Shown here: piece by piece, positions 22,091 to 47,330 of the stretch
Layout: every line of letters begins with the position of its first letter
How positions within the stretch are numbered: position 1 is the first letter of the stretch
NCBI GenBank assembly: GCA_016215105.1
Contig: JACRLJ010000002.1
Coordinates: forward strand, 1 to 64,000
Source: Candidatus Hydrogenedentota bacterium
GTDB taxonomy: Bacteria > Hydrogenedentota > Hydrogenedentia > Hydrogenedentales > SLHB01
Direction of reading: 5' to 3'
Length of the DNA stretch: 64,000 nt
The notes under the pieces: model-generated
Seen by the model: only the letters and a program-made list of their open reading frames with translations
Databases searched by the model: none
Told to the model about the DNA's origin: nothing
Translations under genes and position numbers: made by a program

Positions 22091-22167
22091 GGGCGACTAG
22101 CTCAGTTGGTTAGAGTGCCGCCTTCACACGGCGGAGGTCACTGGTTCGAGCCCAGTGTCGCCCACCA
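22091..22167 (+). tRNA. tRNA-Val (anticodon CAC) with encoded CCA
   Basis: The acceptor stem GGGCGAC pairs with GTCGCCC. The anticodon arm is CCGCC-TTCACAC-GGCGG, giving anticodon CAC for valine codon GUG, and the T-arm is ACTGG-TTCGAGC-CCAGT. The discriminator A is followed by an encoded CCA. It is the integration target of the element to its right. Confidence 0.93.
22121..22167. other. Inferred attL attachment site in the tRNA 3' half
   Basis: The integrase gene ends inside the tRNA, antisense to it, which is the usual geometry when a tyrosine recombinase uses the tRNA 3' half as attachment core. The matching attR (a copy of the tRNA 3' end) is not found in this window, so the core is not defined. 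Confidence 0.5.
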
Positions 22168-23365
22168 TTACTAATTCATCGTAAGGCCCTTCTGGGTCTT
22201 TCTTTATGTCTTCCTGTGTTGCAGAGCTGGAATCGCCTGCAACATATTTGCAACACGGCGATGCCTGATGGTCCTGATCCAAGTGTTTCGTTGCAGCCTC
22301 CACAGCGCGACGTAGACGGGCGTCATCGGCGCTCGCGTACACCTCCATAGAAAGACTTGCCGTAGAGTGTCGCGCCAATTCCATGATCGTTTTCAGGTCT
22401 GCACCGGAACGCACCAACGAGTTAACGAACGCTTTTCGAAAACTGTGCCACGTTGCTTTCCCCTCCGGCGTCTGGTTGACGATACCAGCCGCACTGAGGT
22501 CTTCTTTGAGCGGCGCCCACGCCTCTCGCCCTGGAATGTCTAGCAAAGGCGCCTCTTCGGGACGACCTTGGTTGTTCGACCTCAATCTTTCGGCCAATTC
22601 TTGCGTGATTGGCTGTCGCGCGTTCTTCCGATTCTTCGTATAATCTGCCGCCAAGGGAAGTGATGGCCTGGAAAGATCTAGATCGCGTACCCGCAATGCA
22701 CGCAACTCCGATACTCTGTAACCGGTGGCGAGCGCCACTTCATACCAGAGACGGCGTTGCGGTGGCGCGACGCCCAGCAGAGAAGCGACCTCATTTTCGT
22801 TGAAAGCCCGATGTGGATCACGGGGTCTCGTGTCGATCTTTGCTAGCCCAGCCAAGGGATTACTTGGCAAATACCCCCGTCTAACCGCCCAAAGACACAA
22901 GGATTTCAACGCTTCGATGCGTAATGCCACGCTCTTTGGCGCATAGTGCCCACCAGATAACAAGTCCTGAGCCACCCTTTCGACTTTGTCCAGTCTGATA
23001 TCCACTAGTGACTTAAGGCCTAGCTCGTCCACCCACCAATCAAGATACCCTTCCTTAAGGGCGGCATTCTGTTCATCCCACGGGCGGCCGTCCTTTCCCC
23101 CTTGCGTACGTCCCCACTTCAAGTACGCCGCTATTCTCTCGGATAGCGCGTGATCGGCTTCGCTGGCCGGTCGTGGTAAAACGATTTTTTCACCTTTGCG
23201 AATCGCTCTTTGATCGGCCTCGACCTCAAGCGCATGATGCAACGTCTTTTGCTTATCCGGCCACCCGGTACCATAACGCCACCGTCCAGCAACATCTTTG
23301 AATTTGAATCTCCAGACCTTCTCCGGACGCCCATTTGGCCCTTTTCTTCTGTATACGCTGGCCAT
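22124..23365 (-). CDS. Tyrosine recombinase / integrase
   Basis: A 413-residue site-specific recombinase. The N-terminal part (1-150) holds an arm-binding/SAM-like domain; the catalytic domain has ATGYRVSELRALR (first Arg), HSFRKAF (H-x-x-R), LARHST (second His) and the nucleophile Tyr in MEVYAS. The start is taken at an ATG at 23365 with AGAGGG six bases upstream, seven codons after a possible GTG. The last residues (GDTGLEPVTSAV) are antisense to the tRNA, and the stop codon lies in its anticodon loop. Excision would replace this tail. It is last in a long minus-strand gene run. Confidence 0.92.
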   Translation of the reverse strand: MASVYRRKGPNGRPEKVWRFKFKDVAGRWRYGTGWPDKQKTLHHALEVEADQRAIRKGEKIVLPRPASEADHALSERIAAYLKWGRTQGGKDGRPWDEQNAALKEGYLDWWVDELGLKSLVDIRLDKVERVAQDLLSGGHYAPKSVALRIEALKSLCLWAVRRGYLPSNPLAGLAKIDTRPRDPHRAFNENEVASLLGVAPPQRRLWYEVALATGYRVSELRALRVRDLDLSRPSLPLAADYTKNRKNARQPITQELAERLRSNNQGRPEEAPLLDIPGREAWAPLKEDLSAAGIVNQTPEGKATWHSFRKAFVNSLVRSGADLKTIMELARHSTASLSMEVYASADDARLRRAVEAATKHLDQDHQASPCCKYVAGDSSSATQEDIKKDPEGPYDELVMVGDTGLEPVTSAV

Positions 23366-23578
23366 CGTTATCCCTCTTTGCGCCACGGACGCATTAGTAG
23401 CGAGGAAAGTGATACGCCTAGTCGCTTCGCCGAGGTCACTAGTCGCTTCTTCTCGCCTTTTGTCATTCGCACGTTGACCTGTTCACTATGCCTTTCGCTG
23501 GGCGATTTCGGTGGACGCCCCATGATCTGTCTGTTCTTCTTAGGCATAGACTTATGATACTTTCTGTATACGAATTAG

Positions 23579-25046: not shown

Positions 25047-25418
25047 TTACGTGCGCGCGTGCTCTACTATATTCGAATACACCTTGTTGCCTTCTACGGT
25101 GCGGTGCGCCACCGTTACGCGCAACGTCTTGCCCACCAGAGACTCCACGTCCATCATGCCATCGTGCGGCTGAACACCCAACACGCTCGTGGCAAGCTGC
25201 TTAAACAGCCGCAGTCCGTTCGGATGATCGAGATTGTAGTTCTGGTCGACCGTCATTCTGCGATCCTGACCTTCGATGATCTCGTACCGCACCCGCACAG
25301 CCGCGTCGCCGTCTGGCGTTGCGCTCTGGACCACCACCACGTGCTCTCCTTCGCTAGGAAGAGTCTTGTCGGGGTCGATTTGGTCGTAGAAATTGGGAAC
25401 TCGTACCAACTTCGGCAT
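25047..25418 (-). CDS. DUF669-like protein
   Basis: A 123-residue protein preceded by a strong AAGGAGGTGAA ribosome binding site. The C-terminal LVGKTLRVTVAHRTVEGN and SNIVEH region resembles DUF669, small proteins found in phage and plasmid replication or ssDNA-handling clusters. An N-terminal FYDQIDPDKTLPSEGEH segment also fits. The link to DNA replication is inferred from family context. It sits between a large hypothetical gene and an HTH gene. Confidence 0.6.
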   Translation of the reverse strand: MPKLVRVPNFYDQIDPDKTLPSEGEHVVVVQSATPDGDAAVRVRYEIIEGQDRRMTVDQNYNLDHPNGLRLFKQLATSVLGVQPHDGMMDVESLVGKTLRVTVAHRTVEGNKVYSNIVEHART

Positions 25419-25520: not shown

Positions 25521-26336
25521 TCAGACCCATCCACTGGAAGACGCGTCGGGCTCGTCACAAGTTTCCGGTTCTTCGTCCTCCGTATCCTGTCCGTCATCCA
25601 CATCGTCGCCGAAGGATTGACGGTTGTCACCCATCCACTCGGGAGCAGGGCGAACGCGCCTCTCGCGAAGGGGTTCTGAAGCGACCTCGGAGCGATGCTC
25701 GCTCTCGTAAACGGCCATTTCTCCCCGGTACTGAGTAAATACGCGCTGCAACTCCGGGTCGTCCGGCGTGTAATCCTCATCCTCTAGTAGCGCGTCCGCC
25801 GGGGTGCGCGGCCGGCCAGCGCCGGCCTTTCGCAAAGCGCCATCCATGTCCAAGGAGTACAAGCGCTCCGCAGTAGAGCGCAGCGATTCTTTCAATTCCC
25901 TGAACTCCTCACGGTGTTGAGGAGAAACTTGCGACTCGTCCGTCCTCCAAGACACGCCCAATTCACCCATGCGCTCGGAAATTGAATGGATGCGGTCATG
26001 CAGCATCCCAGCCAGGCCGACCTGGTCCGGATCGGGCCGGCCGGCTGCGCCGTAATACGACATCGCGCCCCTCGCCCGGCCCATCGCCGCCAAACCCCCG
26101 GATCCGAAAGCGTAATCCTTGTCCTTTTTGTACTGCTCCCGCCACCTGCGGGCCGTGGAATCCACGAAGTCGGCGAACTGGCGGAACTGCATGCGATCGG
26201 CCCACCGATCCCGGGCATCCTGGTAGCCATCGCGGCGAGCCTGCTCATGCTCCTCGTCTGACCAGCGCGACGCCGGCGGCGCGTAGTAGCGCATGTCCAA
26301 GGCCGGATTCGGCGGCGGATTACGGAAAGTACCCAT
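25521..26336 (-). CDS. Hypothetical acidic protein
   Basis: About 271 residues, with the start placed at 26336 where GAGG lies 10 bases upstream; the frame is open to an ATG at 26489. The sequence is highly charged, with several predicted helices (DEEHEQARRDGYQDARDRW, REEFRELKESLRSTAERLY) and an acidic C-terminal tail (DDVDDGQDTEDEEPE). A glycine-rich AAMGRARGAMSYYGAAGR segment lies in the middle. I do not recognise the family. The acidic tail could bind a basic protein or DNA-binding surface. Confidence 0.6.
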   Translation of the reverse strand: MGTFRNPPPNPALDMRYYAPPASRWSDEEHEQARRDGYQDARDRWADRMQFRQFADFVDSTARRWREQYKKDKDYAFGSGGLAAMGRARGAMSYYGAAGRPDPDQVGLAGMLHDRIHSISERMGELGVSWRTDESQVSPQHREEFRELKESLRSTAERLYSLDMDGALRKAGAGRPRTPADALLEDEDYTPDDPELQRVFTQYRGEMAVYESEHRSEVASEPLRERRVRPAPEWMGDNRQSFGDDVDDGQDTEDEEPETCDEPDASSSGWV

Positions 26337-26571
26337 TTCTTCGGTTCCTCTCTTGGTGATGTGCTGGACAATCAACCACGCGAAGCGCATGGACAACACC
26401 GCCCAGCGGTTCTTTAGCATCGGGCGAAGCTTCGCATCTTCCTCAGCTATAGACCGGTTATCGTCCTTTCGTGTACGTTCCAAGCTCATCCTGGTCAGTA
26501 GAAGTGTTTCCTGGTACAGCTGTACGTACGGCTGCTTTCAGGCACCCAACCGATCGAGAACTCCTGCGACA

Positions 26572-26778
26572 TCATCTATCCCGCATCAGCCGGGCCAATC
26601 CAACAATTGTGATGCACAGAATGGCCAGCGCCCCGATGGCGTGAAGCTGGTCCAAGCGTGGCAACGACAGGTCAACCGTGCCAATTCGCACCTGGCGATT
26701 GAGGAAGGACCATATAAAATAGGCCGCAATGACAACTGCGACGATGCGGGCACGCGGGGGATTAAATGAGACTCTCAT
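26572..26778 (-). CDS. Small two-helix membrane protein
   Basis: A protein of about 68 residues with two hydrophobic segments (IVAVVIAAYFIWSFL and AIGALAILCITIVGLARL), separated by a short polar loop. GGAG lies just upstream of the ATG at 26778. It sits after the HerA-like ATPase gene and could be a membrane anchor for that ATPase or the lipoprotein complex (inference). Confidence 0.55.
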   Translation of the reverse strand: MRVSFNPPRARIVAVVIAAYFIWSFLNRQVRIGTVDLSLPRLDQLHAIGALAILCITIVGLARLMRDR

Positions 26779-26821
26779 CAAGCTCCATCCTCATCTTCAA
26801 GATCTGTCTGGATAAATACGT

Positions 26822-28888
26822 TCATATCCATTGCGCCAACGTTTCTACGGTAATCCGTGGCAAGAATGCCTGGAGGCCAGGGGCGGCATTGAGCGCACGC
26901 TTTACTTGCCGAACGTCGGACTGAGAAAGACAAACCATAACTAGACTCGCTAAACTAGCGACCATGAAGTCCTTCTCGGCATTATCGCAAGCATTTGTGA
27001 GCGAAAGAGTCACCTCTACGCCAACCAGTCCACCGGTCGGGTCGACACCAACCACGTCGATTGCTTTTGATCCGAAGAAGCACTCCTTGCGCAAATCTCG
27101 GTACCCGCGCGCCCTCATCGAGCTCATGACCTCTTCAATACCGAAGGCATGCATGAATCCACCTTTACCATAAGACGGAATCGATCGCTGTAATGCAGCG
27201 GCCAACGTTGGCAGAGGCTCCAGCAGGATCGGCGCTCTACCCTTGATAGGAACCGACCACTCCCGCACCCATCGCAACGCAAGCAATTCATCCTTGGAGC
27301 GCTGAGCGGATCCGCCGCCGAGTCCAAGCCGCGCGTAGCGTACGTTGAGAAAATCCCAGGGATGGTCCAAAACGTCGGACGCCAGCGCCTTTGCCGTTTG
27401 AGAGATCTGACCGGGCATGCGCGCTGGAGCGGCGCCGGTGCCAAAGGGCGTGAGCGCCCGCTCAACTACCTGTAGAGGTACTCCTGGCCGCCACGGCAAA
27501 GCTGCGAGAACCGGCGCCATAAGACGTGCTCGATCGGCTTCGGTGAACGTTTGAGTTGGCGCGGGAAACTGCCGCACCGTGCCGGCAAACGGCCTGCTGT
27601 ACCTTCCGAGTTTTTCCCGGGCGACGAATTCCCCCCGCGCAGGACTCTGGAGCCGGTCCCAATGAGAGGGCGGAAGTCCCAGGGCATTCCCCATGGCTTG
27701 CAAGTCTTTTTGATGCGTGAGCGAACCTGTGTTAACGATCAGGTCGGACTGGCTGGATACTGCCAACGCCAAATCTGACGGGCTTTGTGATGAGGCGATG
27801 AAACGTAATCCGGCCTGGCGCGCGAGAAGATACATGTGAGACAACGGCATGGCGCCGTCTTTATCGAGGCCCTGTCCAAGGAATCGCTGGGCATCATCGA
27901 GGACGAGGACAAACTGGGGAGATGAGTCGTTCGGTCCGTGGCACTGTAGGTAGGCATGGAGCCAATGAATCAACCAGTCGATCAAGAATCGCGCCGCCCG
28001 GGAATCGTTAAGATTGGGTATCATCAAGGCGGTTCCGCCAGTACCGAACAGGGATTGTGGGTCCATTCCATAACTGGTATCCAGCAGCTGGCCAGTCGCC
28101 CGTATAGTGATGTCTATTGTTGTCTCCGCTCCTTCCAGGTATTTACTTTTTTCGCGCCTCACCGCTTCCAGAAGATTAAGAAGTGTGAAATGCGTTTCGG
28201 TCCCGCACTGCTGTGAATACGCATCGTAGAGGCTTTGAAGGCGGTCCGCGCAGCGGTGGAACAATACCCTCGAATACTGCAGATTCCAGTCTTGGGCGAA
28301 TATTTCGATCACGGTCCTGTTCCAGTCCGCCTGGGGAACACCGGGCGAATGAAATAAACACAAGCGCCATTCGTTCAGGAAAAGTACCCGCTGGAAAACG
28401 CGCGGATCGACGAGCAGCCGCGCCACATCCACTTTCGGCGTGACGTACAGAAACGGAATCTTGCCGGAAAGTTGATGAAGGATGACGTACAATAAATTCG
28501 TCTTGCCCGACCCCGTGGAACCAGTGAGCAAAACGTGTGGCAGCGAGGACAACGGGATTGACCAATCCAAGCCAGTCTCACGGATACGACCAATTGCATT
28601 GTCCCCACGCTGCAACCCGCTTTCGAGACCTGGGTAAGGACGGAGCGCGTCGGGGTCGAGGACAGCTCGCACACGAAAAGAGTGCAAGACCTGTACGAGA
28701 AGTTCCATCGCCGCAGAGTCCTTAGGATCGGCTTCAAGAGCTCCGAACAAAGCTTGGACCATGAAATTCTGCCAAGCCCCCAACTCCTGTGCTTCGTCCA
28801 TCAGTAGCGCGAGCAAGTGCGAAGGGTCAGACGAACCACCTGGTGGATTCCCACGCCAAGGTTTATTCTGGGGGTTGTTCGGTTTCAT
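26822..28888 (-). CDS. HerA/VirD4-like ATPase with C-terminal nuclease-like domain
   Basis: About 688 residues. The central DUF87/HerA-type P-loop domain has Walker A GSTGSGKT (123-130) and Walker B QFVLVLDDAQRFL (about 320), plus FIASSQSP, the sensor-like motif of FtsK/HerA/VirD4 ATPases. These form hexameric DNA or protein pumps. The C-terminal 120 residues (from FGIEEVMSSMRARGYRD) include IDVVGVDP then VGVEVTLS, which looks like a PD-(D/E)XK nuclease core with the usual lysine replaced by threonine, so it may be inactive. The start is uncertain: ATGs at 28903 and 28888 lack clear ribosome binding sites and overlap the upstream gene. It is cotranscribed with zinc-ribbon, lipoprotein, PEGA, VWA and Hsp70-like genes. 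Confidence 0.75.
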   Translation of the reverse strand: MKPNNPQNKPWRGNPPGGSSDPSHLLALLMDEAQELGAWQNFMVQALFGALEADPKDSAAMELLVQVLHSFRVRAVLDPDALRPYPGLESGLQRGDNAIGRIRETGLDWSIPLSSLPHVLLTGSTGSGKTNLLYVILHQLSGKIPFLYVTPKVDVARLLVDPRVFQRVLFLNEWRLCLFHSPGVPQADWNRTVIEIFAQDWNLQYSRVLFHRCADRLQSLYDAYSQQCGTETHFTLLNLLEAVRREKSKYLEGAETTIDITIRATGQLLDTSYGMDPQSLFGTGGTALMIPNLNDSRAARFLIDWLIHWLHAYLQCHGPNDSSPQFVLVLDDAQRFLGQGLDKDGAMPLSHMYLLARQAGLRFIASSQSPSDLALAVSSQSDLIVNTGSLTHQKDLQAMGNALGLPPSHWDRLQSPARGEFVAREKLGRYSRPFAGTVRQFPAPTQTFTEADRARLMAPVLAALPWRPGVPLQVVERALTPFGTGAAPARMPGQISQTAKALASDVLDHPWDFLNVRYARLGLGGGSAQRSKDELLALRWVREWSVPIKGRAPILLEPLPTLAAALQRSIPSYGKGGFMHAFGIEEVMSSMRARGYRDLRKECFFGSKAIDVVGVDPTGGLVGVEVTLSLTNACDNAEKDFMVASLASLVMVCLSQSDVRQVKRALNAAPGLQAFLPRITVETLAQWI

Positions 28889-29309
28889 GGTCACCGTGGA
28901 CATCGAAGAGAGGCCAAACCAGGATTGCGAAAAGAGTACGCCAGAAGCCGCCGCCTCGGCGTTGACGCAACCGCTTGGATCTGCAACGAAGGCAAATGTG
29001 ATCCGCACATACATACCGCTGCGCGCGAGTCAGACGGACCCACAACGATCGCGCACAGGCGGGGCAGATGCCGGCGACTCTTGAAAGTGATGAGCAACGG
29101 CATCCGCAGGCGAGAACATAGTGATTTGCACTCTCGGTCGTGACGACTTCATTGCCATTTATGTCCCAATATGTGCGCTCCTGCATCGAGAACTCCGTGT
29201 TCGTAGTAACAGGCTTGGGGGATATTTGCCCTGTCTTCTTTCGGGTCCGTCCCATCAGCGTATTTCCGAGACGCTGCCGTAACGTTTGATAGGGGTCTGG
29301 TTGGCTCAT
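28863..29309 (-). CDS. Zinc-ribbon protein with hydrophobic C-terminus
   Basis: A 148-residue protein with several cysteine motifs: CGCRC, CPACA and CADHICLRC, in the pattern of a treble-clef or zinc ribbon (about 66-112). A hydrophobic patch (FWRTLFAILVWPLF) follows near the C-terminus. The family is unknown to me. Its stop overlaps the start of the HerA-like gene and it lies 10 bases after the lipoprotein gene, so it should be made with both. A role as adaptor between the ATPase and another partner is possible. Confidence 0.6.
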   Translation of the reverse strand: MSQPDPYQTLRQRLGNTLMGRTRKKTGQISPKPVTTNTEFSMQERTYWDINGNEVVTTESANHYVLACGCRCSSLSRVAGICPACARSLWVRLTRAQRYVCADHICLRCRSKRLRQRRGGGFWRTLFAILVWPLFDVHGDHETEQPPE

Positions 29310-29319
29310 GGATTACTCC

Positions 29320-30021
29320 TCACTTCGTTCGGGTCCGCAGGACGCGATACGCCCGGCACACCTCAGTTGGAAAGACATCGATACGGGGGGAAACCTGGGG
29401 GTCAGTCTGAATTGCCAGTGTTAGGAAGCTCACACACTCCCGCGGCCGGCTGACGAGATATGCGGCGGAGGCCGCGAACAGGAGGGCCGAGGCCTTATCG
29501 TGGTCGAACACATGTACGTCATCCATGAGGCGCAGGGTTTGCGCCATGACCTCCTCATAGTGAAAGTGCCCGTAGAGATCGGCAACCTCGGTGAGAGTGT
29601 CATGATCGCCTGCAAGCGATTCTTGATTCGGCCGTTCCGTGCTGCCGGATCCTTTTCTCGACTCCGACGCAGTGTCCCGCGGTGATGAGAACGCATCTTC
29701 CTGGCGGAGATTAGGAGGCCGCGCGCCGGACTGTTCACCCGAACTCTCAGACGAGTCTGAAGCGGGATTCGAAGTCGCAGCCGAGCGGATATTTGCGCTC
29801 GCCGACTCAGGCGGATCTGGTACGTGTTCCGGAGTTCCGCGAGGTATGGCCATCCCCGGCTCCAAATCGGTAGGTTGTGGGCGGCGAGACCAGATACCTG
29901 TTCCTTCCAAGAATTGCGCGGCCAGTGGCGACTTCGACGACACGTTGTCCAACATGGTCGTACATCCGGTCAAGAGCAGAAGGCCCAACCCGGCCGCTGA
30001 TATGTAGCGATTTCTTTTCAT
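29320..30021 (-). CDS. Lipoprotein
   Basis: A 233-residue protein with a lipoprotein signal: a basic start, then GLGLLLLTGC with Cys20 as the lipidated residue. A disordered Ser/Pro/Glu-rich region (50-130) precedes a C-terminal helical domain (HYEEVMAQTLRLMDDVHVFD, then SALLFAASAAYLVSRPREC) that looks like TPR helices. The ATG overlaps the PEGA gene stop (ATGA), so the two should be translated together. This places part of the module outside the cytoplasmic membrane. Confidence 0.7.
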   Translation of the reverse strand: MKRNRYISAAGLGLLLLTGCTTMLDNVSSKSPLAAQFLEGTGIWSRRPQPTDLEPGMAIPRGTPEHVPDPPESASANIRSAATSNPASDSSESSGEQSGARPPNLRQEDAFSSPRDTASESRKGSGSTERPNQESLAGDHDTLTEVADLYGHFHYEEVMAQTLRLMDDVHVFDHDKASALLFAASAAYLVSRPRECVSFLTLAIQTDPQVSPRIDVFPTEVCRAYRVLRTRTK

Positions 30022-31061
30022 GGGAATGCGCCCTCGTTCATAGTGGCTTCACCACTATCCAAGAAGACCTTGATGACATATGATTTGTCCGGATCGAAGG
30101 ACGCCTGTAATCTGAGCGCCGTCGGCGAAGCCCTTGCCACAAGCTCGAGAGTGTGGAAGCCAGGCGCCAAGAGAAAGGGCTGGGGCCGCGGCGCCTCACC
30201 GCAATACACCCCATCGATGTACACATCCGCCACCGGATGACACAGAATCCAGACTCGATCATTATCCGGTGTTGGAGCGAATGGCTCAGGTTCCAGGAAG
30301 TCGAGTGTCTGCATAGAAGCGAATTCGTCTTGAACACCATCTCCTGCGAACGGAACCGTTCTAGGCGCGCGCCGCGGAATCGGCGCAACGTCACGGACGT
30401 CATGAAGGTGATTCGCGGGCTCGCCCCAACCGGCAGCCCAAGCCGCAGGTTCCTCACGGCGCTTCGTGCCCCATGACATCAGCGCCACCAGGATTACGCC
30501 GGCAATCATAGCCACGTATAGCCAGCGATTGGGCCAAACGCGTCTGCCGAACGAATTCCACACTGTAGACCACCGCCAAGGCACGGTCGGAGGTGGTGCT
30601 GGAGTGGGTACTTGTTGTGTGGCCGTCTGAACCCTTGGAGGTCGTGATACCCCGCGTGCGGGCGCTTGCGAGCTGGTTCCGGCTGTGGTGTTGGGGGCTC
30701 GCGGCGCAGACGGAATAGGCGCGGGCCCCGCTGGTGAGGGCCTCGGCGCTGTCGCCATGGGGGGTGTCGGCGCTGGTTTAGACAACGGCGGTCGTACCGG
30801 CGCAGTGGTGGCCTGCTGCGTAGTCACCTTCACGGGCATTGCTGTCGCCGGGGCTGCGGGACCCAGCGGCAATAAGACATTGAACGCCTCCTGGTACGCC
30901 GCCATCTGCCGGATCACCTGGTCCCGGTCCACCTGACTTGAGGGCCTTAGCATCCGCACTTGCGCGGACACGACCTTCTTCTGCAACAGCGCCCGCAACA
31001 CATCAGCCGTTGCAGGCGGCGCCGAAAGGCCCAAAGTCTGAAGCGCCTGTTGCGGTGTCAT
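30018..31061 (-). CDS. Membrane protein with degenerate J-like N-terminus and PEGA domain
   Basis: A 347-residue protein in four parts. Residues 1-65 resemble a J domain in helix pattern (ALQTLGLSAPPATADVLRAL through QEAFNVLL) but have no HPD motif. A long Pro/Ala/Thr-rich linker (70-160) follows, then one transmembrane helix (about 180-198: LYVAMIAGVILVALMSW). The C-terminal part contains a PEGA domain (ILCHPVADVYIDGVYCGEAP then LLAPGFHTLELV), normally extracytoplasmic. Its ATG lies six bases after the VWA stop. A J-like domain beside an Hsp70-like gene suggests coupling of the chaperone-like ATPase to the membrane, though without HPD it may not stimulate ATP hydrolysis in the standard way. 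Confidence 0.65.
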   Translation of the reverse strand: MTPQQALQTLGLSAPPATADVLRALLQKKVVSAQVRMLRPSSQVDRDQVIRQMAAYQEAFNVLLPLGPAAPATAMPVKVTTQQATTAPVRPPLSKPAPTPPMATAPRPSPAGPAPIPSAPRAPNTTAGTSSQAPARGVSRPPRVQTATQQVPTPAPPPTVPWRWSTVWNSFGRRVWPNRWLYVAMIAGVILVALMSWGTKRREEPAAWAAGWGEPANHLHDVRDVAPIPRRAPRTVPFAGDGVQDEFASMQTLDFLEPEPFAPTPDNDRVWILCHPVADVYIDGVYCGEAPRPQPFLLAPGFHTLELVARASPTALRLQASFDPDKSYVIKVFLDSGEATMNEGAFP

Positions 31062-31067
31062 GTCCGG

Positions 31068-31721
31068 TTACGAGTCGACACTGAGCATGCCGGTCGCGAT
31101 ACGCGCGAAAGTGCGGCGAATTTCGTCGCCGTCGCCCAAGAAGCGGTAATGGTCGGGCGTTGTGGCGATCTGGCGCAGGAACTGCTCATCCACTTCCTGC
31201 CGCGTTTGCGCTACGCCGAAGGAGAGAATGATCACGCCGCGCTCTTTGAGGAATCCCGCACATTCCAACGCTGGGGCGGTTTTCTCATCGTGGCCGTCGC
31301 TATAGCAAATGAGCCTAGTGACTATCGGTTTGTACACGTCGGAAAGGCCCAGGTCGCGCTCATCAATCAGATCTAGAGCGATGCGCAACCCGCCCGCCAT
31401 ACGGGTACCACCACCGCACATGTCCTTCGCTTTCTTCAGGGCGCAACACAGCGGCTCGTATCCGTCCACCACATTCTCCAGCCCACAGAAGATTTTGGCC
31501 GTGGTTCCGTAAGCGATCACCGCCAAACGGTCCAGCGGGCGCTGATCTCGCTTAATCGCCAGGGCTGCGAGGCTGGCCGCGTACATTAGGTCTCGTTTGG
31601 ACTTACTCGGTTCAAAGCCCTTGCCACTCATACTTCCGCTGACATCCTTCAAGAGGATGTCGTGGAAGATACAATTCCCGGTCATTTCGGGGTTCGCGAA
31701 ACGTGTTCTGTCCATGTTCAT
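31068..31721 (-). CDS. VWA-domain protein
   Basis: A 217-residue protein that is almost entirely a von Willebrand factor A domain. The MIDAS motif DVSGSMSG lies near residue 27, GGTRM (about 117) supplies the Thr and YSDGHDE (about 151) the Asp. There is no signal peptide or membrane segment, so it is probably cytoplasmic. AAGGAG nine bases upstream supports the ATG at 31721. VWA proteins of this type are metal-dependent adaptors, often partnered with MoxR ATPases. Here its neighbours are Hsp70-like and PEGA proteins. Confidence 0.85.
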   Translation of the reverse strand: MNMDRTRFANPEMTGNCIFHDILLKDVSGSMSGKGFEPSKSKRDLMYAASLAALAIKRDQRPLDRLAVIAYGTTAKIFCGLENVVDGYEPLCCALKKAKDMCGGGTRMAGGLRIALDLIDERDLGLSDVYKPIVTRLICYSDGHDEKTAPALECAGFLKERGVIILSFGVAQTRQEVDEQFLRQIATTPDHYRFLGDGDEIRRTFARIATGMLSVDS

Positions 31722-31760
31722 GATTCCAAACTCCTTTCATTGTGCATTTGTGCAACGGAA

Positions 31761-31789
31761 GGCCGTGGACTCCCAGGCGGCCCACGGCC
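31761..31789. promoter_or_regulatory. Stem-loop between Hsp70-like and VWA genes
   Basis: GGCCGTGG and CCACGGCC form an eight-base stem around a 13-base loop in the space between the two genes, upstream of the VWA ribosome binding site. It has no following T-run on the minus transcript. It may set relative expression or mRNA stability. Confidence 0.5.
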
Positions 31790-31828
31790 ACTCCGTATAC
31801 GCAAGATCACGACAGCATTTGCGGCGCG

Positions 31829-33288
31829 TCAGCCCAAGTGGCTCTTAGTAACGGCGGCCGCCGTATGGGCCTGACCTTGAATCTCCTTGCCAGAGAAGGT
31901 GTCCACGGCGCGGACGCTTGCCAAAGCCGAAGTGTCCACATCCAACTCAACACGCACTCGCTCGTCCGTGGGTCCGGCGGGCAAGTCGTGCAACGGGAAC
32001 CGCGCCAACTCAGTCGCGTCGGACGGGTCACAGTTCGCTTTGCCTTGCAGCACGACGATATCCGCGCTGTCAACGCCCTCGGCGCCACCGATCAGGCCAA
32101 ACGTTGTGCTCGCCGTGGCTGGCAACGCCGTGCCCTGTGGAATCATGGCTGCCAACTGCTCACGCATCGTTCGGGTATTCACTGCAAGCACGCCGAGCGC
32201 CTGCCCCAGGACCTCGCGAAGGACTACGTTTCCCTTCAACTGATACTCCGGCGCCATACCTTGAAGGGCGACGTCACCGACCGCGATACGCTCTTGGACT
32301 TTGATGGCTATGGCGTCTACCGCGCCCATGACGACGCATTTGTCCACATCAAAGTCCTTCATAGCCTTTGCTGAACCGAACTTTACTTCGATATTTTCGC
32401 GAAGGTACCGTACCCGAGAGCCGCCGCCGACACTGGCCACACCATCGACTTCATCGGGTGTGATTTGCGCCTGGCTCAACGCTTCGTCCACGAGCGCCAG
32501 AATGTCTTGACAGAGATCGGCGATTAATTGGTTAAACGCAGACAGGGTCAGGGGGATATCCAACAACTTGTCCTTGGCCCGAATGGTTAACGTAACGGAA
32601 TCGCGGGACGATAAGTCCTGTTTGCAGGTTTCGGCTTCCGATTCGATGATGACGATATCTCTGGAATCCTCTTCGGGATCGAGAGCCACGCCGTGTTGGG
32701 AAGCATAATCCAGACAGTACTCCACGATTCTGCTTGTGACTTCTCGTCCGCCTCTGTCGTCACGGCCCGCTGTTGCCAGAATTGTTATGGTGTGGCCGTC
32801 GTCTTCCGAGCGCACCACTGATACGTCCGTCGTTCCCGCGCCAATATCCACGATGACGTAGACGCCGTTTTTGCCCTTGGCGACTGCGATTACCGCCGCC
32901 GAGGGTTCGTTGATGGTTCCCAACGGTCTGAATGTGGCTTGTTCCACGACTTCCAGGGAGGCACGTCTCTGCTGGTCATTGAAACATGCAGGAACACATA
33001 CCAATACGCCTGCGATGGACTCACCCGTGACCTCTTCATTGCGGTGCGCCCGAATAACGGCTTGTCCGGGTCGCCATCCTCGAACGCTATCGCGGTGGGT
33101 GTGCACATCAGACCCTCGCGGTCCGCGAGAACCACGATCTGGCCCAAAGCGTTCACAAATGCAATCAGCGTGGTGCCATTGCCAAGGTCAATCGCCATGA
33201 AAAGACCTTTGTGCTTCGGAGGGCGCCCACGCTTCTTTTTTTGGACGGATTCGTCCGGAGTTAATTGATCGGAATCTGAGTTGCTCAT
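31829..33288 (-). pseudogene. Hsp70-like ATPase gene interrupted by a frameshift
   Basis: The 5' frame (from 33288) begins with a basic stretch and then AIDLGNGTTLIAFV, the phosphate-1 loop of Hsp70/actin ATPases, continuing to FGRTA near 33055. From there similarity continues in the frame shifted by one base: VCVPACFNDQQRRAS, INEPSAAVIA, VDIGAGTTDVSVV (phosphate 2) and VGGGSRVRYLRE (adenosine loop), then a substrate-domain-like C-terminus to 31829. Joined, the product is about 485 residues. The segment between FGRTA and the VCVPA strand is about 50-60 residues shorter than in DnaK, so part of lobe IB is missing. A one-base indel is enough to restore the frame: it may be a sequencing error, a real mutation or recoding. 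No classical slippery heptamer is seen. Confidence 0.75.
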
Positions 33289-33551
33289 GCCTTGTCCTCC
33301 TTCTTCGTGTTCACTGGTTTCGGTGAATACTTCAAGACGGTTACGTGAGCAGTGCGGAACACCAGTCCGTTTCGCATGAAACCGCGGCGGCTCATTTCCA
33401 CTACCCGCCCATCCTCCTCCGGCAGATGGGTAATCTGAACCCGAACGGGAAGGTGCAGGTTGTAGTCCACGCGTTCGGGATAGGGCAGCGCCACTATGCC
33501 CAACTCGGCCAAACGTTCAAGATTGGTTTGGATGATATTCGTCAGAGTCAA
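33285..33551 (-). CDS. Small hypothetical protein, possibly the 3' part of a frameshifted gene
   Basis: An 88-residue frame that starts at a TTG overlapping the TGA of the 48-residue frame upstream (TTGA) and ends in an ATGA overlap with the Hsp70-like gene. Its content (VRVQITHLPEEDGRVVEMS, then GLVFRTAHVTVLKYS) is protein-like, beta-rich. Either it is coupled to the upstream frame, or both are halves of one gene of about 136 residues broken by an indel. Confidence 0.5.
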   Translation of the reverse strand: MTLTNIIQTNLERLAELGIVALPYPERVDYNLHLPVRVQITHLPEEDGRVVEMSRRGFMRNGLVFRTAHVTVLKYSPKPVNTKKEDKA

Positions 33552-33694
33552 TCGCTCAAGTACCGCAGGTGCGCTTCCATCACGCTGTCGTCCCCGGATT
33601 TCCGAAGCGTATCCACGTTGCAAGGAACTTCCCCTGCTGCTATTTCGTCGCGCGCAAAACAGAGCGGGTCGCCAAATTTCAGTTGAGATTCCAT
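33548..33694 (-). CDS. Small 48-residue protein
   Basis: A short frame with a good ribosome binding site (GGAGGAG, then TA, then ATG). The product starts MESQLKFGDPLCFARDEIAA and contains NVDTLRKSGDDSV. It ends in the TTGA junction described for the next gene and may be the 5' part of that gene. Confidence 0.5.
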   Translation of the reverse strand: MESQLKFGDPLCFARDEIAAGEVPCNVDTLRKSGDDSVMEAHLRYLSD

Positions 33695-33711
33695 TACTCC
33701 TCCTTCTTCCG

Positions 33712-33840
33712 CTAGCCGTACGGCCTCTTACGTGGGTGGCTATGGGGGCGCAAGACTGTGGCGGCTGTCTTGGCCACAATCTCCCGCAATGCCATCGGAT
33801 CGTGGGGGTCGGGTAAGTCCAGGTCTTCGGTAGTTTCCAT
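33712..33840 (-). CDS. Tiny 42-residue protein
   Basis: An ATG at 33840 follows AAAGGAGGT by 10 bases. The product is METTEDLDLPDPHDPMALRE and then IVAKTAATVLRPHSH followed by a basic end. It lies 17 bases before the next small gene in the same direction. No family recognised. The strong ribosome binding site is the main evidence. Confidence 0.45.
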   Translation of the reverse strand: METTEDLDLPDPHDPMALREIVAKTAATVLRPHSHPRKRPYG

Positions 33841-34000
33841 GTGCCTAGGTACCTCCTTTCATACGGCTCAGCTGAGGGTTCTCTGGAACGAAGGCGACGA
33901 CCACCAGGGGCTTCAAACTACCCTTGATCCACCTCGTCCCATTTGCTACTGACGGATGAACAAGGCAATCCGTCCGCATGCGGTCTTCGCCAGTGCTCGA

Positions 34001-34306
34001 TTACAGCGAAAACGGTTGGGTTAGGCGGGCGCTTGTCACCAGAATTGGCTCGTCGACGTCCGCCGCGCGCGCCGTTCCGAGTATGTCTGGAAATACGTTT
34101 CCGAGAAGCTCTCTTCCGTCCTGCAAGGCAAGATTCAGACGCGCGTGCCAGCGCGTTGGACGTAACCACCGCGCAAGAAATGCGCTCAATAGCTTTGCCG
34201 GTGCAGTTTGAAAATGCAGTATTAGACGCCCTTTGGCACTGTCCAATACGACGGGCCAATGCGGTACAAAACATAGCGCGAAGTCACAATCGCATTGAAT
34301 CGCCAT
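34001..34306 (-). CDS. Hypothetical protein
   Basis: A 101-residue protein starting at an ATG with AGGAGAG six bases upstream; the open frame further upstream is probably untranslated leader. The sequence (FVPHWPVVLDSAKGRLILHF, then LLSAFLARWLRP) is hydrophobic in places but has no clear membrane helix. It follows a GC-rich stem-loop and precedes the Hsp70-like operon genes. Function unknown. Confidence 0.55.
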   Translation of the reverse strand: MAIQCDCDFALCFVPHWPVVLDSAKGRLILHFQTAPAKLLSAFLARWLRPTRWHARLNLALQDGRELLGNVFPDILGTARAADVDEPILVTSARLTQPFSL

Positions 34307-34471: not shown

Positions 34472-35176
34472 CTACGTGAGATACTCACCGAGAACGGGGA
34501 GCTCCTTACGGATGCGGTCAAACGCTTCTTTCCGGCGCTTGTACGCCTGCGTTCGTGAAGGCTTGATGGGCCAGTCTTTTTTCCCGATCTCGTACCCTTT
34601 CATGTCGTGGAGTTCGGCGACCCTTACACCTACCGAAGACTCCTGCGCGGCATGCTCCAAGGCCAGTTTCACGTCTAAGCGCCGCACGAGAGCGTGGATT
34701 TCCGCCATTCCGGCACGCGCTTCATGATTGAGGATGGCGTCCTGAATCGCGTCGTCGTCACCTTCGCAATCGCCAAAGTCGTGAAGGAAATCTGCTGTGA
34801 CTTGGCGACCGTTCTTTTGGCTCAACGTGATGGCCAGCCTCTTTGCGACCTTGTAGACCCATGTGTACTGTCCCCGTGCTTTAGGAACCCTGATGGGACA
34901 GCTCCAAGCGCGATAAAACGTTTCCTGCGCCAGGTCTTCACGGTCTTCCTTGCTCAATCCGAACGAGCGGGAGACGAAGAACACCACGCTCGCCAAGACC
35001 AAGAGAAAACTCTTCAAATGTTCCAGAAAATCCGCCTCATCCGTGAAGGTATCGTTTTTCTCGGGCTTGCGTTTGCGCGCCTTCGACGCTGAACCATGCG
35101 CAACGGACTTTTTGGGGGTTGAATTCTTCTTACGGGAACCTCTTTTCTTCCTTTTCGTTACGGTGAGGATAGACAC
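34472..35176 (-). CDS. ECF-like sigma factor
   Basis: About 234 residues from a GTG start at 35176 with AAGGAAG upstream. A very basic N-terminal extension of about 40 residues (TKRKKRGSRKK) precedes a sigma region 2-like domain (FGLSKEDREDLAQETFYRAW, then YTWVYKVAKRLAITL). A region 4-like helical part follows (KLALEHAAQESSVGVRVAEL, then SRTQAYKRRKEAFDRIRKEL). Extracytoplasmic-function sigma factors direct RNA polymerase to a small set of promoters. It is the first gene of the minus-strand arm and may switch on that operon. Region 4 is divergent and no anti-sigma factor is evident next to it, though the membrane PEGA protein could sense signals. Confidence 0.72.
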   Translation of the reverse strand: MSILTVTKRKKRGSRKKNSTPKKSVAHGSASKARKRKPEKNDTFTDEADFLEHLKSFLLVLASVVFFVSRSFGLSKEDREDLAQETFYRAWSCPIRVPKARGQYTWVYKVAKRLAITLSQKNGRQVTADFLHDFGDCEGDDDAIQDAILNHEARAGMAEIHALVRRLDVKLALEHAAQESSVGVRVAELHDMKGYEIGKKDWPIKPSRTQAYKRRKEAFDRIRKELPVLGEYLT

Positions 35177-35524
35177 GGCCGCTTCCTTTCTTCGGGAATG
35201 CCCGCTTGGGCGCGGCGCGCCAGCGCCGGCGGGATTCCTCGCTCGTTGAAGGGATGTCGGCCGACTCCATTCATCCAAAAACCAGCAGGATAACTGCCTG
35301 CTGCAAGAGTATTGTGGCGAATAGTTTTTCCTGGGCGATCTCTGCCGGCCGGAAAAACTAAGTCCTTAAATTCCAATGCTTTACAAATTCCGACATGCTG
35401 AGAGGTGGAAAAACTCGAGAGCCTGGTGTAACCTCAACCCGGGGCTGAACTGCGTGACGTGTGAGTAGCTGTACGAGGGCGACAATGGATGTTTGACAAG
35501 TGGCGTGAAGCGAGGGTTGATTAG
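35177..35524. other. Divergent intergenic region between sigma-like and STAND genes
   Basis: About 350 bases expected to hold both promoters. A TTGACA at 35493-35498 lies close to the STAND start but has no good -10 at 17 bases. No gene is supported. Confidence 0.4.
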
Positions 35525-38500
35525 GTGGGGCGCCCGGACGACCGTTGGCAAGCGTTTAGATCCACGGCCCGAAACTTAGGCTTGAACGGCGCATACATTG
35601 GACCGTTGCAGGAAATTGCGGACATTGTGTACGCAGCGGAGTTAAATTCCGACGCCGAAAAGAAGCTTGAATTGACTGAGGGAATGCTCAAATCCCATTT
35701 GCCCGAGAAACGGAAAGACACAAAGAATGATTACCTAAGGAAGCTCGAGCACAAGGACCGCTTTGCCGACTCAAACGCTTCTTGGGTTCTGTGGATAGCA
35801 AATGACTCACCCTACTATGCAGCTATCTCAAGTATTAAGGGAGTCATAGACGATCCGCTTCGCGAGGTGTATATCCTACTTCTTCTTCACGCTCTCATGC
35901 CCGCCCATTCGGAAAAAGTAACGGACTTTCTGATGAACCGAATGCGCGTTCTGAGCGGTGAAGCTTGCGATGAGACGCTACTGTACCAAATCAGGACCGG
36001 GCTAACCGAAGATAATCTGCTGAAGCTACCTCCAGGTCTGCGCATGCAACCCAAAGAGGCCATATCAAAGCTAGACGGCGTAGCCAGTACAGGTCTTAAA
36101 GCCCGCATGCTACGTGCCAGCATCATGGACTTTACCAAGGAGATAGAAAACGAGTGCAAACCGATTCACCACAAGGGTGCCCTCGCTCGAATTCGGAGTT
36201 TCCTCGAGGGTGATGGTCCCGCACAGTTCCTCATCTTGGTCGGATCCGCCGGATGGGGAAAGAGCGCAATCATTACCCATTTCCTCAAGCACCACAACGC
36301 GAAAACTACTCACGTATCAACTCTGATTCCTTTCCTGATCAAATGGGACGAGACACTACGCAGCGAAGCTGTCTTCGTTTGGCAGAGCTTGGGGGCTGCC
36401 CTCCAGATTCTGACGGGCCAATTGCTTGATGAGAAGGATAGGCCAGCTGACCGACCAGAAATCGCTTTCAACAACTTTAAATGCACTATGGATCGGTTGC
36501 GAGAGGAAAATGATCAAGTTCAACCACCGGATTGGAAACCCAAGTCTGCGAAAGAATCTTGTAACGAAGAAAAGCATATCTTCGGTCGCGCGTATCCCAA
36601 CCGAATCACTCTCGTTGTAGACGCTTTGGATGAACTCAATCCATCATCACGGCCGCTGCTGGACGACCTGGTCACGATTGACAACATCCCAGCCAGGATA
36701 CGATTCATTTTTACGTGTAGGCCCGATTCAGCTGGACTAAGTCGGTTCCTTAAGCGCGCCAAAGCGAAAGCCAAGGTTATTGACCTCCTGGATGGAGAGG
36801 GAAAGAAGCAGCGCGACGCCATAAAGCGATACTTTGAAGCCGAATTTGTCATTCTCAAGAAAGAAGCTCCCACCCCCGTAAGAATTGAACTGCTGGTTCA
36901 GCGCAGCGAAGGCTCCTTTCTATACGCCACGCTGGTGGCACGCGACATAATCGAGGTGGGCGGCCGCTACGACTTCACAAACGTTCCACGGGGACTCCAC
37001 GAACAGCTGGAGAACAAGGAGTGGGCCCGCCTAATGAAGGGACCCCTCGATCCCGGGAAAACGTCCAGGTTGCTCGCGGCAGTCGCGGCAATCCGTGGAC
37101 CATGCGAGCTCGAGCTTGTAGCTGAATCCGCTGGAATCCAGCTATCCGAGATAGAACGATTCCTCCAAGTGCATGGCTACCTGTTTCTCTGCGCGCCGGA
37201 TCAGGACGGCGCCTACAGGGCCAAAACGCGCATCACTGGCTACCGACACCAATCGATACACGCCTACTTCGTCGAGCACAAACTTGGCGAAGCAGCGATC
37301 CGACGGGCTCATGGCTTTATAGTCACCGCATTTCAACGATGGTGGGGATCGCGTCACAATGAGCGCTTGGCTGACAGCGGCTACTACTTTGAGCATATAG
37401 TGAATCACTTCCTCGACGCGAACGAGGTCTCCCGACTTATGGAACTCCTCACCGATTCACCGGACTGGCTCCTCGCGAACGAAACCGTGACCGGAAGTAC
37501 TGCCCATGGCTTGAGAGATATTGCGTCGGTCTGCGCCTTGCTGCCCAAATGCGAAGATGCGGTCACGATTCGTCGTCGATTCAAGCTGAGGGCCGCGCAG
37601 AGATTTCTGGAACAGCGAAATGTCCAATTTGACGACGACTATATCGAAATCTTGGCAATGCTAGGAAAAGACTCCACCGCGTTAGGACTTGCTCGCGGAC
37701 GGACCGGATACGCCGCGCGCATCACCGCGCTTCTAGCAGTGATACGCGCATTCCGGGCAATTGGCCGACCCTTCGATCAACTCCTCACCGAGGCCGAAGC
37801 GCTGTCTGCTCACCTCCAAATGTCTGCTAAAGCCGATCTCCGGGCATGGGTTTTCTTAATGGAGGAGAAAACCATTGGAAAGGACGAAAGTGACCCAGTA
37901 GCAGGACTATTCGTTCATACCACCCCAAACAGGATGGTTCTAGCGTTAGCGCGTGTAGCAGGCGCCCTAGTTGCCAAAGGCGAACATCAACAGGCTGTTG
38001 AGGTGGCAACTAGGTTTAGTGCGGATTCGTTACATAACGCCGCCTACGCAGGAATGGCGTTCGTCTGCGGCCGCGATGGGTTGCCGGACGAGGCGTTGAA
38101 GCTAGTCGACAATCTCTCAACTATAAATTGGAAGGCGGCACTCCTTGAATCACTAATAAGTGCTTGTGTAGAGAGACGTGACTACCCCAAGATAATCAAG
38201 GCATACCATTGCTTTATCGAATTGTATTCATCAGAGTCGGACGACCTATCCAGGTTCTCAGCAAACTGGGACGCCGTCCAAGTCGTTATTCGTCCTCTAA
38301 TACGTGCGAAATATTTTCACCAAGCGATCAGCTTCATACTTTTTACATATTGTGATTCTTCCTTTAATTCCCAGGAGCCGATGGGAGAGGCGCCAAGCGC
38401 CATTGAACACACTCTGAGTCAAGCGCTAGAAACGGTTACCGACCGATTAACAGTGGACGAGCGCGTGCCTGCTGAGCTCGCTCTTGCGCTTGTCGCAGTG

Positions 38501-40411: not shown

Positions 40412-40846
40412 TTACGATTGAGAGTAGCACGTAGCATACGGGGATGTCCATGATCTCAGTCGTGCTTCAGCGAGCTGGGCACGGTGTTGCGTAATGCTAT
40501 GGACCTCACGAACCAGATACCCGGGCCAGTCCCGTTTCAGATGGTTGGGATACACGGATATTACGGAGATTCCTGATGCTGTGTAGGCTGTGTTTTTCTC
40601 AATCACGCCTCGGTCGTAGTCTGGGTTTCCGATGAGTCCGTAATACTCGATGTATAACCCAAACTCGGGTAGATGAAAGTCCGGATACCAGATTCGACTT
40701 TTGCCGTGCTGATTGACTATGACGGGCGCTTCGTACATGTACCGGATGCCACACTGGTCCAATAATGCCGCGATCTGTCGCTCACCCTCAGATTTCAATA
40801 AGTGCGCGTAGGCGCAGTCAATGGTGTTTTCGAGTCCCGATGCCAT
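40412..40846 (-). CDS. PD-(D/E)XK-like endonuclease (Vsr/DUF559-like)
   Basis: A 144-residue protein. The core is E (SEGERQIAALL), then YPDFHLPEFGLYIEYYG, followed by ISVISVYP. This is the arrangement of Vsr-like and DUF559-like nucleases, where D and E in PDF and IEYYG are the metal ligands; the usual lysine after the second acidic residue is replaced by tyrosine here. GGGGGAAGA precedes the ATG. It converges on the STAND gene with 12 bases between the stops. It could be a defence nuclease or a mobile-element enzyme. Confidence 0.7.
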   Translation of the reverse strand: MASGLENTIDCAYAHLLKSEGERQIAALLDQCGIRYMYEAPVIVNQHGKSRIWYPDFHLPEFGLYIEYYGLIGNPDYDRGVIEKNTAYTASGISVISVYPNHLKRDWPGYLVREVHSITQHRAQLAEARLRSWTSPYATCYSQS

Positions 40847-41852: not shown

Positions 41853-42006
41853 CCCGCCCAGTAGTTCACCCACCTAAACTCTTCGCGAGCTCCCATTTTT
41901 TCCAATCGAATCAAGGCGCCACAGACCGTCAACCGCTACACGATCAGTCGCCTGCAAATCTCGTCCGAAATACAAGCAAATAACTAAGTGAACCCGAAAC
42001 CGTGTC

Positions 42007-42039
42007 GGCCCAACAGGAACAACCATGCCCTGTTGGGCC
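42007..42039 (+). promoter_or_regulatory. Stem-loop just upstream of the ardC-like gene
   Basis: GGCCCAACAGG and CCTGTTGGGCC form a perfect 11-base stem around an 11-base loop, ending 11 bases before AAAAGGAGG. No T-run follows, so it is more likely an mRNA structure than a terminator. Confidence 0.6.
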
Positions 42040-42062
42040 AAACAATAAAAGGAGGTCAAACC

Positions 42063-42923
42063 ATGCACCTGTACGGAATTCACACTGAGGAAGTAGCACA
42101 GCGTATCGTTACCGCGTTTCAACAACCAGAAACGCTACCCAAAGCGCTAGCGCCGATTTTCATCCACCGCAAGGACGACGTACCTTGCCGGAAGTGGTCC
42201 TGGCATAACCAGCTGATCGCTGCCCTAAGTGGCACGACGGACGCCCGCGGCATGCGCCAATGGAACGAAGCAGGACGCAAGATACGGCCAGGCAGTAAAG
42301 CGATTTGGATTCTCGCACCCTGCCTCAAAACCATACGGGACAAAAACGATCAAGGCGAAGAAGTCCAACGCAGCGCGCTCTTTGGCTTTCGATCCGTTCC
42401 GGTTTTTGCTATCGAGGACACCAGCGGCAGTCCGTTACCTGTATCTGACGACTGCTACAATTCTTGGTTACAAGAGCTGCCCTTGCTCGAAGTCGCCAAG
42501 TCGTGGAACATCATGGTCGGCACGTACTCCGGAACAGGCGCCTCGGCGCTAGGATACTTTCAACGTAGCGCGTCCGGACAAGCGATTATGCTGGGCGTTG
42601 AGAACCGGTCGACCTGGGCTCATGAATTGACACACGCAGCTGATGACCGAATCAACGGGTTGCAGGAGCCCAAGTGGCATCGGGAGATTGTAGCCGAATT
42701 GGGAGGCGCGATACTTCTGGAATGCTTGGGTCTAACCCACGAATCCGATCTCGGGGGCGCATACGAGTACATCCAGCGTTACGCCGAAGACGCAAAGAAA
42801 GACCTCGTTAAAGCGTGCATCGAAGTATTGGACCGTGTCTGCAATTGCGTCAAGCTCATTCTGGACACGGCGGAATCTGCCGCTTCAACCGCCGCCACCG
42901 CAACACTGTCCGCCAGCGCGTAG
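42063..42923 (+). CDS. ArdC-like antirestriction protein
   Basis: A 286-residue protein. The N-terminal half is the ArdC-type ssDNA-binding domain (PCRKWSWHNQLIAAL, then ARGMRQWNEAGRKIRPGSKA). The C-terminal half holds a zincin-like metallopeptidase with H187-E-L-T-H191 (WAHELTHAADD) and the downstream EIVAELGG third ligand. ArdC proteins protect incoming plasmid DNA from host restriction during transfer. An AAAGGAGG precedes the ATG. This is a marker of a conjugative or mobilisable past, though no transfer genes are seen. Confidence 0.88.
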   Translation: MHLYGIHTEEVAQRIVTAFQQPETLPKALAPIFIHRKDDVPCRKWSWHNQLIAALSGTTDARGMRQWNEAGRKIRPGSKAIWILAPCLKTIRDKNDQGEEVQRSALFGFRSVPVFAIEDTSGSPLPVSDDCYNSWLQELPLLEVAKSWNIMVGTYSGTGASALGYFQRSASGQAIMLGVENRSTWAHELTHAADDRINGLQEPKWHREIVAELGGAILLECLGLTHESDLGGAYEYIQRYAEDAKKDLVKACIEVLDRVCNCVKLILDTAESAASTAATATLSASA

Positions 42924-43051
42924 GGATGTACTTTCCCATTACTCCTTGGCCGGATGATCAAAATCTCGCAGCCGCCTCCCGAGCCACGGACTCGTTCGCG
43001 GTTACGCCGACCAGGCATCGCGATAACCCGTCTCTGGATGCGGGCCCTCGC

Positions 43052-43930: not shown

Positions 43931-44101
43931 CAGCAAGCCTCCCGCTATGAAGCATTATCTTCACAGTCCCGCCAGTAACACAACATGACGCGCAGACCCT
44001 CTGAGCGTCGCTAACCACACCCATCGACTGAGTAACCAAGGCCGGGCACGGAGCAACCATTGCCCCTGCCGGGCCACAACCCTGTAAGGAGGAAGAGAAC
44101 C

Positions 44102-44404: not shown

Positions 44405-44445
44405 TCGTCCATCGGCGCAACCAACACAAACAATGAGGTGAAACC

Positions 44446-45543: not shown

Positions 45544-45548
45544 AAACC

Positions 45549-45788: not shown

Positions 45789-45793
45789 AAACC

Positions 45794-46294: not shown

Positions 46295-46316
46295 AAAAGC
46301 GTCCAAGGAGAAGCAT

Positions 46317-46616: not shown

Positions 46617-46619
46617 GCC

Positions 46620-47239: not shown

Positions 47240-47330
47240 TCCATCTGCTAGGGACCCTGTAATGCAGTCTGGCAATGAGGCCGGAAAACAAACGAGAACC
47301 TTTGGAAAATGACCAAGAAAGGAACAAACC

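Follow-up and report, generated by a model that had tools for sequence, protein, structure and literature searches.

An Hsp70-GrpE-VWA-HerA gene cassette carried by a family of Hydrogenedentota integrative elements

Several described or predicted systems share components with the gene cassette reported here. GAP1-N2 GTPase systems are predicted conflict systems that include Hsp70, GrpE, DnaJ- or TPR-fused proteins, vWA proteins, zinc ribbons and PEGA/beta-sandwich membrane proteins (Kaur et al. 2020, PMC7159879). Type III-A CoCoNuT, also a predicted conflict system, contains Hsp70, a TerY-like VWA protein and VWA-flanked HerA/VirB4-like ATPases (PMC11090510). The Ced system uses two HerA-like ATPases that jointly resemble VirB4 (PMC11868833). 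The GAP1-N2 Hsp70/GrpE theme and Type III-A CoCoNuT are the closest published relatives of the cassette, and both lack its gene set. As an earlier note on this DNA had supposed, the literature searched describes no system of this composition.

Gene content and layout of the cassette

The window, that is, the whole stretch of 64,000 nucleotides that was analysed, belongs to a draft genome of Candidatus Hydrogenedentota (6.68 Mb, 171 contigs). The cassette is encoded entirely on the minus strand, in the order sigma factor, GrpE, Hsp70, VWA protein, TM/beta-sandwich protein, lipoprotein, zinc ribbon, HerA-A, 2-TM protein, 322-aa protein and DUF669-like protein (Table 1). The gene calls bear out the order and tight packing given in the earlier note, whose list left out GrpE and the sigma factor, both part of the unit. 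The genes of the TM/beta-sandwich protein and the lipoprotein overlap by ATGA (30018-30021), as do those of GrpE and Hsp70 (33285-33288). The zinc ribbon and HerA-A genes overlap by ~26 nt if HerA-A starts at 28888, which is probably its start rather than 29014. Family support is present for Hsp70, GrpE, the VWA protein, the sigma factor and the integrase. The 322-aa protein has no family match in the profile scans, the G047 homologue of the DUF669-like protein scores 4.6e-4 with DUF669, and the small TM protein, already listed in the earlier note, is kept in G047.

Table 1 Features of the cassette and of the element that carries it
Feature	Position	Strand	Basis or remark
tRNA-Val (CAC)	22091..22167	+	ARAGORN; presumed integration site
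Tyrosine integrase of the element	22124..23386	-	Pfam Phage_integrase 3e-14
DUF669-like small protein, distal cassette end	25047..25418	-	DUF669 0.016; syntenic G047 homologue 1e-11
322-aa charged, mostly helical protein	25521..26489	-	Syntenic in G047 (43%)
Small protein, two hydrophobic stretches (69 aa)	26572..26781	-	Hydropathy; G047 match 1e-15
HerA-A: HerA/FtsK-superfamily ATPase, wHTH-like segment, nuclease-like tail	26822..28888	-	
Zinc-ribbon-like protein, conserved Cys pairs, C-terminal hydrophobic segment	28863..29309	-	
Lipoprotein, TPR-like C-terminal part (TPR by eye)	29320..30021	-	Lipobox LLLTGC
TM/beta-sandwich membrane protein	30018..31061	-	N-terminal helices, Pro-rich linker, TM helix ~181-199, C-terminal beta-sandwich
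VWA protein, intact MIDAS (DVSGS...T...D)	31068..31721	-	Pfam VWA 7e-11
Hsp70 3' part	31829..33040	-	Frame of ORF 31829-33106; Pfam HSP70 4e-48; tblastn with G047 Hsp70 residues 139-545
Hsp70 5' part, different frame	33036..33288	-	~52 codons missing at junction (~33035)
GrpE 3' part	33285..33554	-	GrpE 7e-4; tblastn of G047 GrpE 3e-17
Probable GrpE 5' part, different frame	33548..33694	-	~30 codons missing at junction; compared with G047 GrpE
Sigma-70-like (ECF-type) factor, cassette head	34472..35278	-	Sigma70_r2 3e-7; homologue at corresponding place in G047
STAND-type NTPase (1624 aa), between cassette and element core	35525..40399	+	AAA_16/NACHT, APAF1_C- and TPR-like
Small PD-(D/E)XK-like nuclease	40412..40846	-	PADLOC HEAT_CxxC_PDDEXK 9e-15; kept in G047 element
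Element core: ArdC-like, 182-aa protein, GP88, RadC, VWA/DUF2201-like, MoxR ATPase, SAP protein	41988..54021	+	
HerA-B, second HerA-like ATPase of the element	57331..59457	+	DUF87 1e-9; CedD model 2e-21; hhalign to HerA-A
XRE regulator, right end of element	59601..60026	-	
Small conserved membrane protein, right end of element	60130..60429	+	Weak holin model 5.6e-4

The VWA label is certain from its Pfam match, and the MIDAS residues (DVSGS, T106, D142) are conserved. The lipobox likewise supports the lipoprotein label, and the zinc ribbon cysteines are invariant in comparison with G047 and G048. The TM/beta-sandwich protein is predicted to consist of N-terminal helices, a TM helix and a C-terminal beta-sandwich. 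The earlier note had assigned it a J-like N-terminus and a PEGA domain, and neither label is supported by profiles: no Pfam or NCBIfam match to either was obtained in the homologues scanned. In hhalign comparisons with J and PEGA domains from the window's own genome, the direct J profile test gave 3%, with HPD in 0 of 3 homologues, and the PEGA comparison gave 14% (E 0.002). The helical N-terminus is J-like in outline, without HPD and without a profile match, and a PEGA-like nature of the C-terminal beta-sandwich is at most suggestive. A fold search with this protein returned weak beta-sandwich matches alone (best E 0.02). Judged by the sequences of the lipoprotein, the TM/beta-sandwich protein and the 2-TM protein, it is plausible that part of the cassette is located at the envelope.

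The Hsp70-like gene of the earlier note belongs to the family and is not intact, since an internal deletion splits it into the frames 31829-33106 and 32890-33288. When the intact Hsp70 of G047 was searched against the window with tblastn, residues 1-91 matched in one frame and 143-545 in a second, and the stretch between them gave no match. Lost with this segment are subdomain IB and the lysine that corresponds to DnaK K70 in the alignment. Both deletions are out of frame, with ~154 nt lost from Hsp70 (33030-33045) and ~90-100 nt from GrpE (33548-33554), and the downstream cassette genes are all intact. Because the remainder of both genes carries no further stop, the deletions, if real, are recent. 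As written, the window's chaperone cannot work, GrpE and Hsp70 both being frameshifted. The cassette of the window is probably inactive or altered, unless DnaK and GrpE of the host take over or the deletions arose in assembly, which could still be the case in a draft of this kind.

Both chaperone genes are intact in G047 (HSP70 1.6e-67, GrpE 6.6e-8) and in G004, where the encoded Hsp70 proteins retain the catalytic lysine (K70 of DnaK), the glutamate and SBDbeta. The C-terminal helical lid is absent from these two proteins, which end at ~545 aa, and the Pfam coverage stops at position 497 of 599. The cassette Hsp70 forms a clade of its own. In a scoring of 386 genomes, its three members score 470 bits or more with a model that was built from two of them, and other Hsp70s reach at most 222 bits.

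HerA-A carries the Walker motifs GSTGSGKT and VLVLDDA and scores with DUF87 (5.5e-4, below the curated cut-off), AAA_16 (1.6e-4) and PADLOC mad8 (1e-12). The earlier designation as a HerA-like ATPase stands: the Pfam match is weak and the profile-profile match to HerA-B is strong (hhalign 99.5%, 1.4e-22). By profile comparison, HerA-A is a paralogue of HerA-B across the ATPase, wHTH-like and tail regions. Of the nuclease-like tail described previously, homology to the HerA-B tail is retained, and the nuclease character stays putative, the AlphaFold model of HerA-A being of low confidence (pLDDT 35). The best NCBIfam model is CedB for HerA-A (1.7e-5, mainly the P-loop region) and CedD for HerA-B (2e-21), with scores far under the family cut-offs (24 vs 700 and 76 vs 600, respectively). 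The PADLOC HerA models are generic and match the non-cassette HerA-B equally. Membership of HerA-A in CedB or MADS mad8 was dismissed, the scores being too low or unspecific.

Recurrence of the cassette and its carriage on integrative elements

The complete cassette recurs in identical order in another genus (G047, contig C23), at ~32-64% protein identity. A 5.9-kb contig of G048 (C47) comprises the Hsp70 end, the VWA, TM/beta-sandwich, lipoprotein, zinc ribbon and HerA-A genes and the start of the 322-aa protein gene. The earlier note had proposed looking for at least four of its six genes as neighbours elsewhere; all of them are neighbours in G047:C23, and six cassette genes are in G048:C47. 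With an order that recurs in G047 and mostly in G048, the cassette is a co-inherited multi-gene set, as had been claimed. Identity to the window proteins in G047 and G048 is highest for the zinc ribbon (62-64%) and HerA-A (53%), followed by the VWA protein (42-48%), the TM/beta-sandwich protein (36-40%) and the lipoprotein (29-32%). The cassette genes are under purifying selection: each gene compared shows far less non-synonymous than synonymous change. Between G047 and G048, two species of one genus, HerA-A is 76% identical, the VWA and TM/beta-sandwich proteins 43-48%. This would be quicker evolution or exchange of the latter two, as diversifying sensing parts would show.

In a different family of the order (G004), GrpE, Hsp70 and the VWA protein occur together at 35-36% identity on a contig that stops inside the VWA gene. 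This triad (contig C194, L045:3450-6340) adjoins a possible primase/helicase gene and an insertion-sequence-like gene. Among 68 Hydrogenedentota genomes, HerA-A is found at high identity in G047 and G048 only. It is otherwise absent from these genomes, 291 sampled relatives, viral contigs, phages and plasmids, and a wide distribution of the cassette was dismissed on the negative viral contig, phage and plasmid searches. The viral contigs searched contain no relatives of the VWA, zinc-ribbon or TM/beta-sandwich proteins, and the plasmids searched none of the TM/beta-sandwich and VWA proteins. The sole viral Hsp70 match (L107) was set aside as an ordinary full-length DnaK without cassette neighbours. 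The cassette is a real, small family without a published name, present in two or three copies.

The tRNA-Val and the integrase delimit an integrative element on its left side, and recognisable genes of this element reach ~60.4 kb. The end of the integrase gene overlaps the 3' part of the tRNA on the opposite strand, and the cassette occupies the left arm, beside the integrase. The element of G047:C23 likewise adjoins a tRNA-Val, there with the anticodon TAC, with the integrase alongside. A search for attR via repeats of the tRNA found none beyond chance level, and a tRNA-like match at 60497-60515 was rejected as a chance D-arm match. The MoxR ATPase and the core VWA protein of the element (49048-52633) lie outside the cassette. 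The STAND-type NTPase is not at the corresponding place in G047. The small membrane protein and XRE regulator of the right end are also found in the elements of G041 and G052.

The core, situated on the right arm (ArdC-like, GP88, VWA/DUF2201-like, MoxR and SAP proteins), is common to the sister elements G047:C6, G041:C134 and G052:C37 at 42-81% identity (MoxR 74-81%), and G053 and G051 are linked to them by MoxR. Homologues of HerA-A and of the VWA, zinc-ribbon and TM/beta-sandwich proteins were not found in any of these five. Their cargo is different and includes HerA-like, NACHT/STAND and ThiF/JAB genes. Since core-sharing sister elements lack it, the cassette is optional cargo: an accessory unit of a family of Hydrogenedentota integrative elements. 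HerA-B is 76% identical between the two complete carriers vs ~35% in the cassette-less G047:C6; these are two cases, too few to call co-inheritance of HerA-B and cassette.

The three sister elements sharing the full core also encode a Cdc6/Orc1-like protein (Cdc6_C 1.6e-17) next to ArdC (L047:10907-12352 in G047:C6, G041:C134:162321-163586 and G052:C37:88119-89432), an archaeal/eukaryotic-type initiator on bacterial mobile elements. It is accompanied by ParA in two of the three and was not found in the window or G047:C23. In G047:C6, ThiF/E1-like, small and JAB proteins form one operon (L046:7277-10251) beside genes for HerA-like and large proteins, which resembles bacterial ubiquitin-like defence operons. 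Arrays of several related ~200-aa proteins are located near the core in G041 (C134:175474-186136) and G052 (C37:60157-61425).

Possible functions

We tentatively read the cassette as an envelope-anchored, NTP-driven conflict (exclusion/defence) system, a variant of the Hsp70-GrpE systems in which HerA replaces the GTPase. The sigma factor would turn the operon on, with the TM/beta-sandwich protein and the lipoprotein acting as monitors or anchors at the envelope. The Hsp70-GrpE pair and the VWA protein could provide ATP-dependent control of complex assembly or release, and a HerA hexamer with its DNA-binding and nuclease-like tail might act on DNA. A conflict function is our best guess because of the published relatives, the optional carriage, the adjoining STAND NTPase and the quicker divergence of the VWA and TM/beta-sandwich proteins. 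Synteny of the gene order, purifying selection and the scores of HerA-A with the PADLOC mad8 and HerA models also speak for it. Against it, the PADLOC scan found no defence gene family matching the whole set, and no recognised effector is present among the cassette proteins. Two or three copies are known, of which that of the window is broken, and in each complete example the cassette neighbours the integrase, a placement that also agrees with a function in the life cycle of the element.

The main rival in our ranking is a DNA-transfer or uptake machine of the element, which we regard as possible, if rather unlikely. HerA-A and HerA-B would then act like CedB/CedD or VirB4/VirD4, with an envelope scaffold and the chaperone as assembly factor. 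The two ATPases are paralogues of one architecture with Ced models as their best NCBIfam matches, in the two complete elements the integrase at tRNA-Val is the immediate neighbour of the cassette, and the element carries ArdC-like and RadC genes, which are typical of transferring elements. However, the Ced scores fall far short of their cut-offs, and the scanned proteins include no relaxase or MPF family match and no polytopic VirB6/CedA-like channel. By hydropathy, no protein between 22 and 61 kb has more than ~3 TM segments, a measure that a very divergent channel could escape. Moreover, the sister elements that share the core lack the cassette, and G048 has the cassette with no HerA-B or MoxR match, on a contig of just 5.9 kb and in a bin that may be incomplete.

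An element-encoded envelope stress or protein-quality module, built from the lid-less Hsp70, its own GrpE and the sigma factor, with HerA-A as a separate neighbouring function, appears improbable. The dedicated sigma factor at the operon head agrees with it, and the triad of G004, on a contig ending in the VWA gene, suggests that GrpE, Hsp70 and VWA may be separable; yet in both genomes whose contigs extend far enough downstream, the zinc ribbon and HerA-A come immediately next, their genes overlapping. That unrelated genes came together by chance, or that the assembly produced the cluster, is hardly credible. The many contigs of the draft and the two adjacent frameshift deletions would fit an artefact, but the identical order in two other assemblies at ~32-64% protein identity contradicts it, and a chance cluster was dismissed on the synteny in G047 and G048.

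Beyond the conflict reading, the cassette might represent a new class of envelope-spanning machine on mobile elements, a proposal that we consider doubtful. Here, a lid-less Hsp70-GrpE-VWA assembly would control a HerA-type translocase with a nuclease-like tail and either block incoming DNA or move the element's DNA without a type IV secretion channel. If the cassette works as a unit, it would couple the Hsp70/GrpE chaperone cycle with a HerA-type DNA pump across the cell envelope; the literature and libraries searched contain no such pairing. It would also extend the Hsp70/VWA conflict systems, so far described chiefly around GTPases or McrBC, by a HerA-based branch, in a phylum without described systems of this kind. 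The cassette is besides an example of exchangeable, ATPase-centred cargo on one family of Hydrogenedentota integrative elements.

Comparison with known systems

With the GAP1-N2 Hsp70/GrpE theme, the cassette shares Hsp70 and GrpE, a TPR-like partner, a zinc ribbon and a TM/beta-sandwich protein; vWA proteins are found in related GAP1-N2 themes. In contrast to GAP1-N2, the cassette proteins have no TRAFAC GTPase or GAP1 match (Pfam, PADLOC, NCBIfam) and include a HerA-family ATPase instead, a J domain is not demonstrable, and the cassette resides on a Hydrogenedentota integrative element. Similar to Type III-A CoCoNuT, it joins an Hsp70-like ATPase, a VWA protein, a HerA/FtsK-superfamily ATPase and a zinc ribbon in one operon. 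It differs in having no McrB/McrC, kinase, phosphatase or HEPN gene, and neither an McrB GTPase nor a CnuB-CnuC pair is present among the cassette or scanned element proteins. The cassette Hsp70 is furthermore a separate protein with canonical-type NBD and SBDbeta and its own GrpE.

HerA-A resembles the MADS and HerA-nuclease antiphage systems in its mad8 and HerA model matches, whereas PADLOC identified no other partner gene among the cassette proteins and the mad8/mad3-like similarity is confined to HerA-A. The two HerA-like ATPases of the element, with CedD and CedB as best NCBIfam models, recall Ced; unlike Ced, the cassette is bacterial, no CedA-like channel was found, and an envelope lipoprotein and a chaperone are added. 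As in MoxR-vWA ternary systems, the element carries a MoxR ATPase and a VWA protein, but these belong to the element core, and the VWA protein of the cassette is paired with Hsp70.
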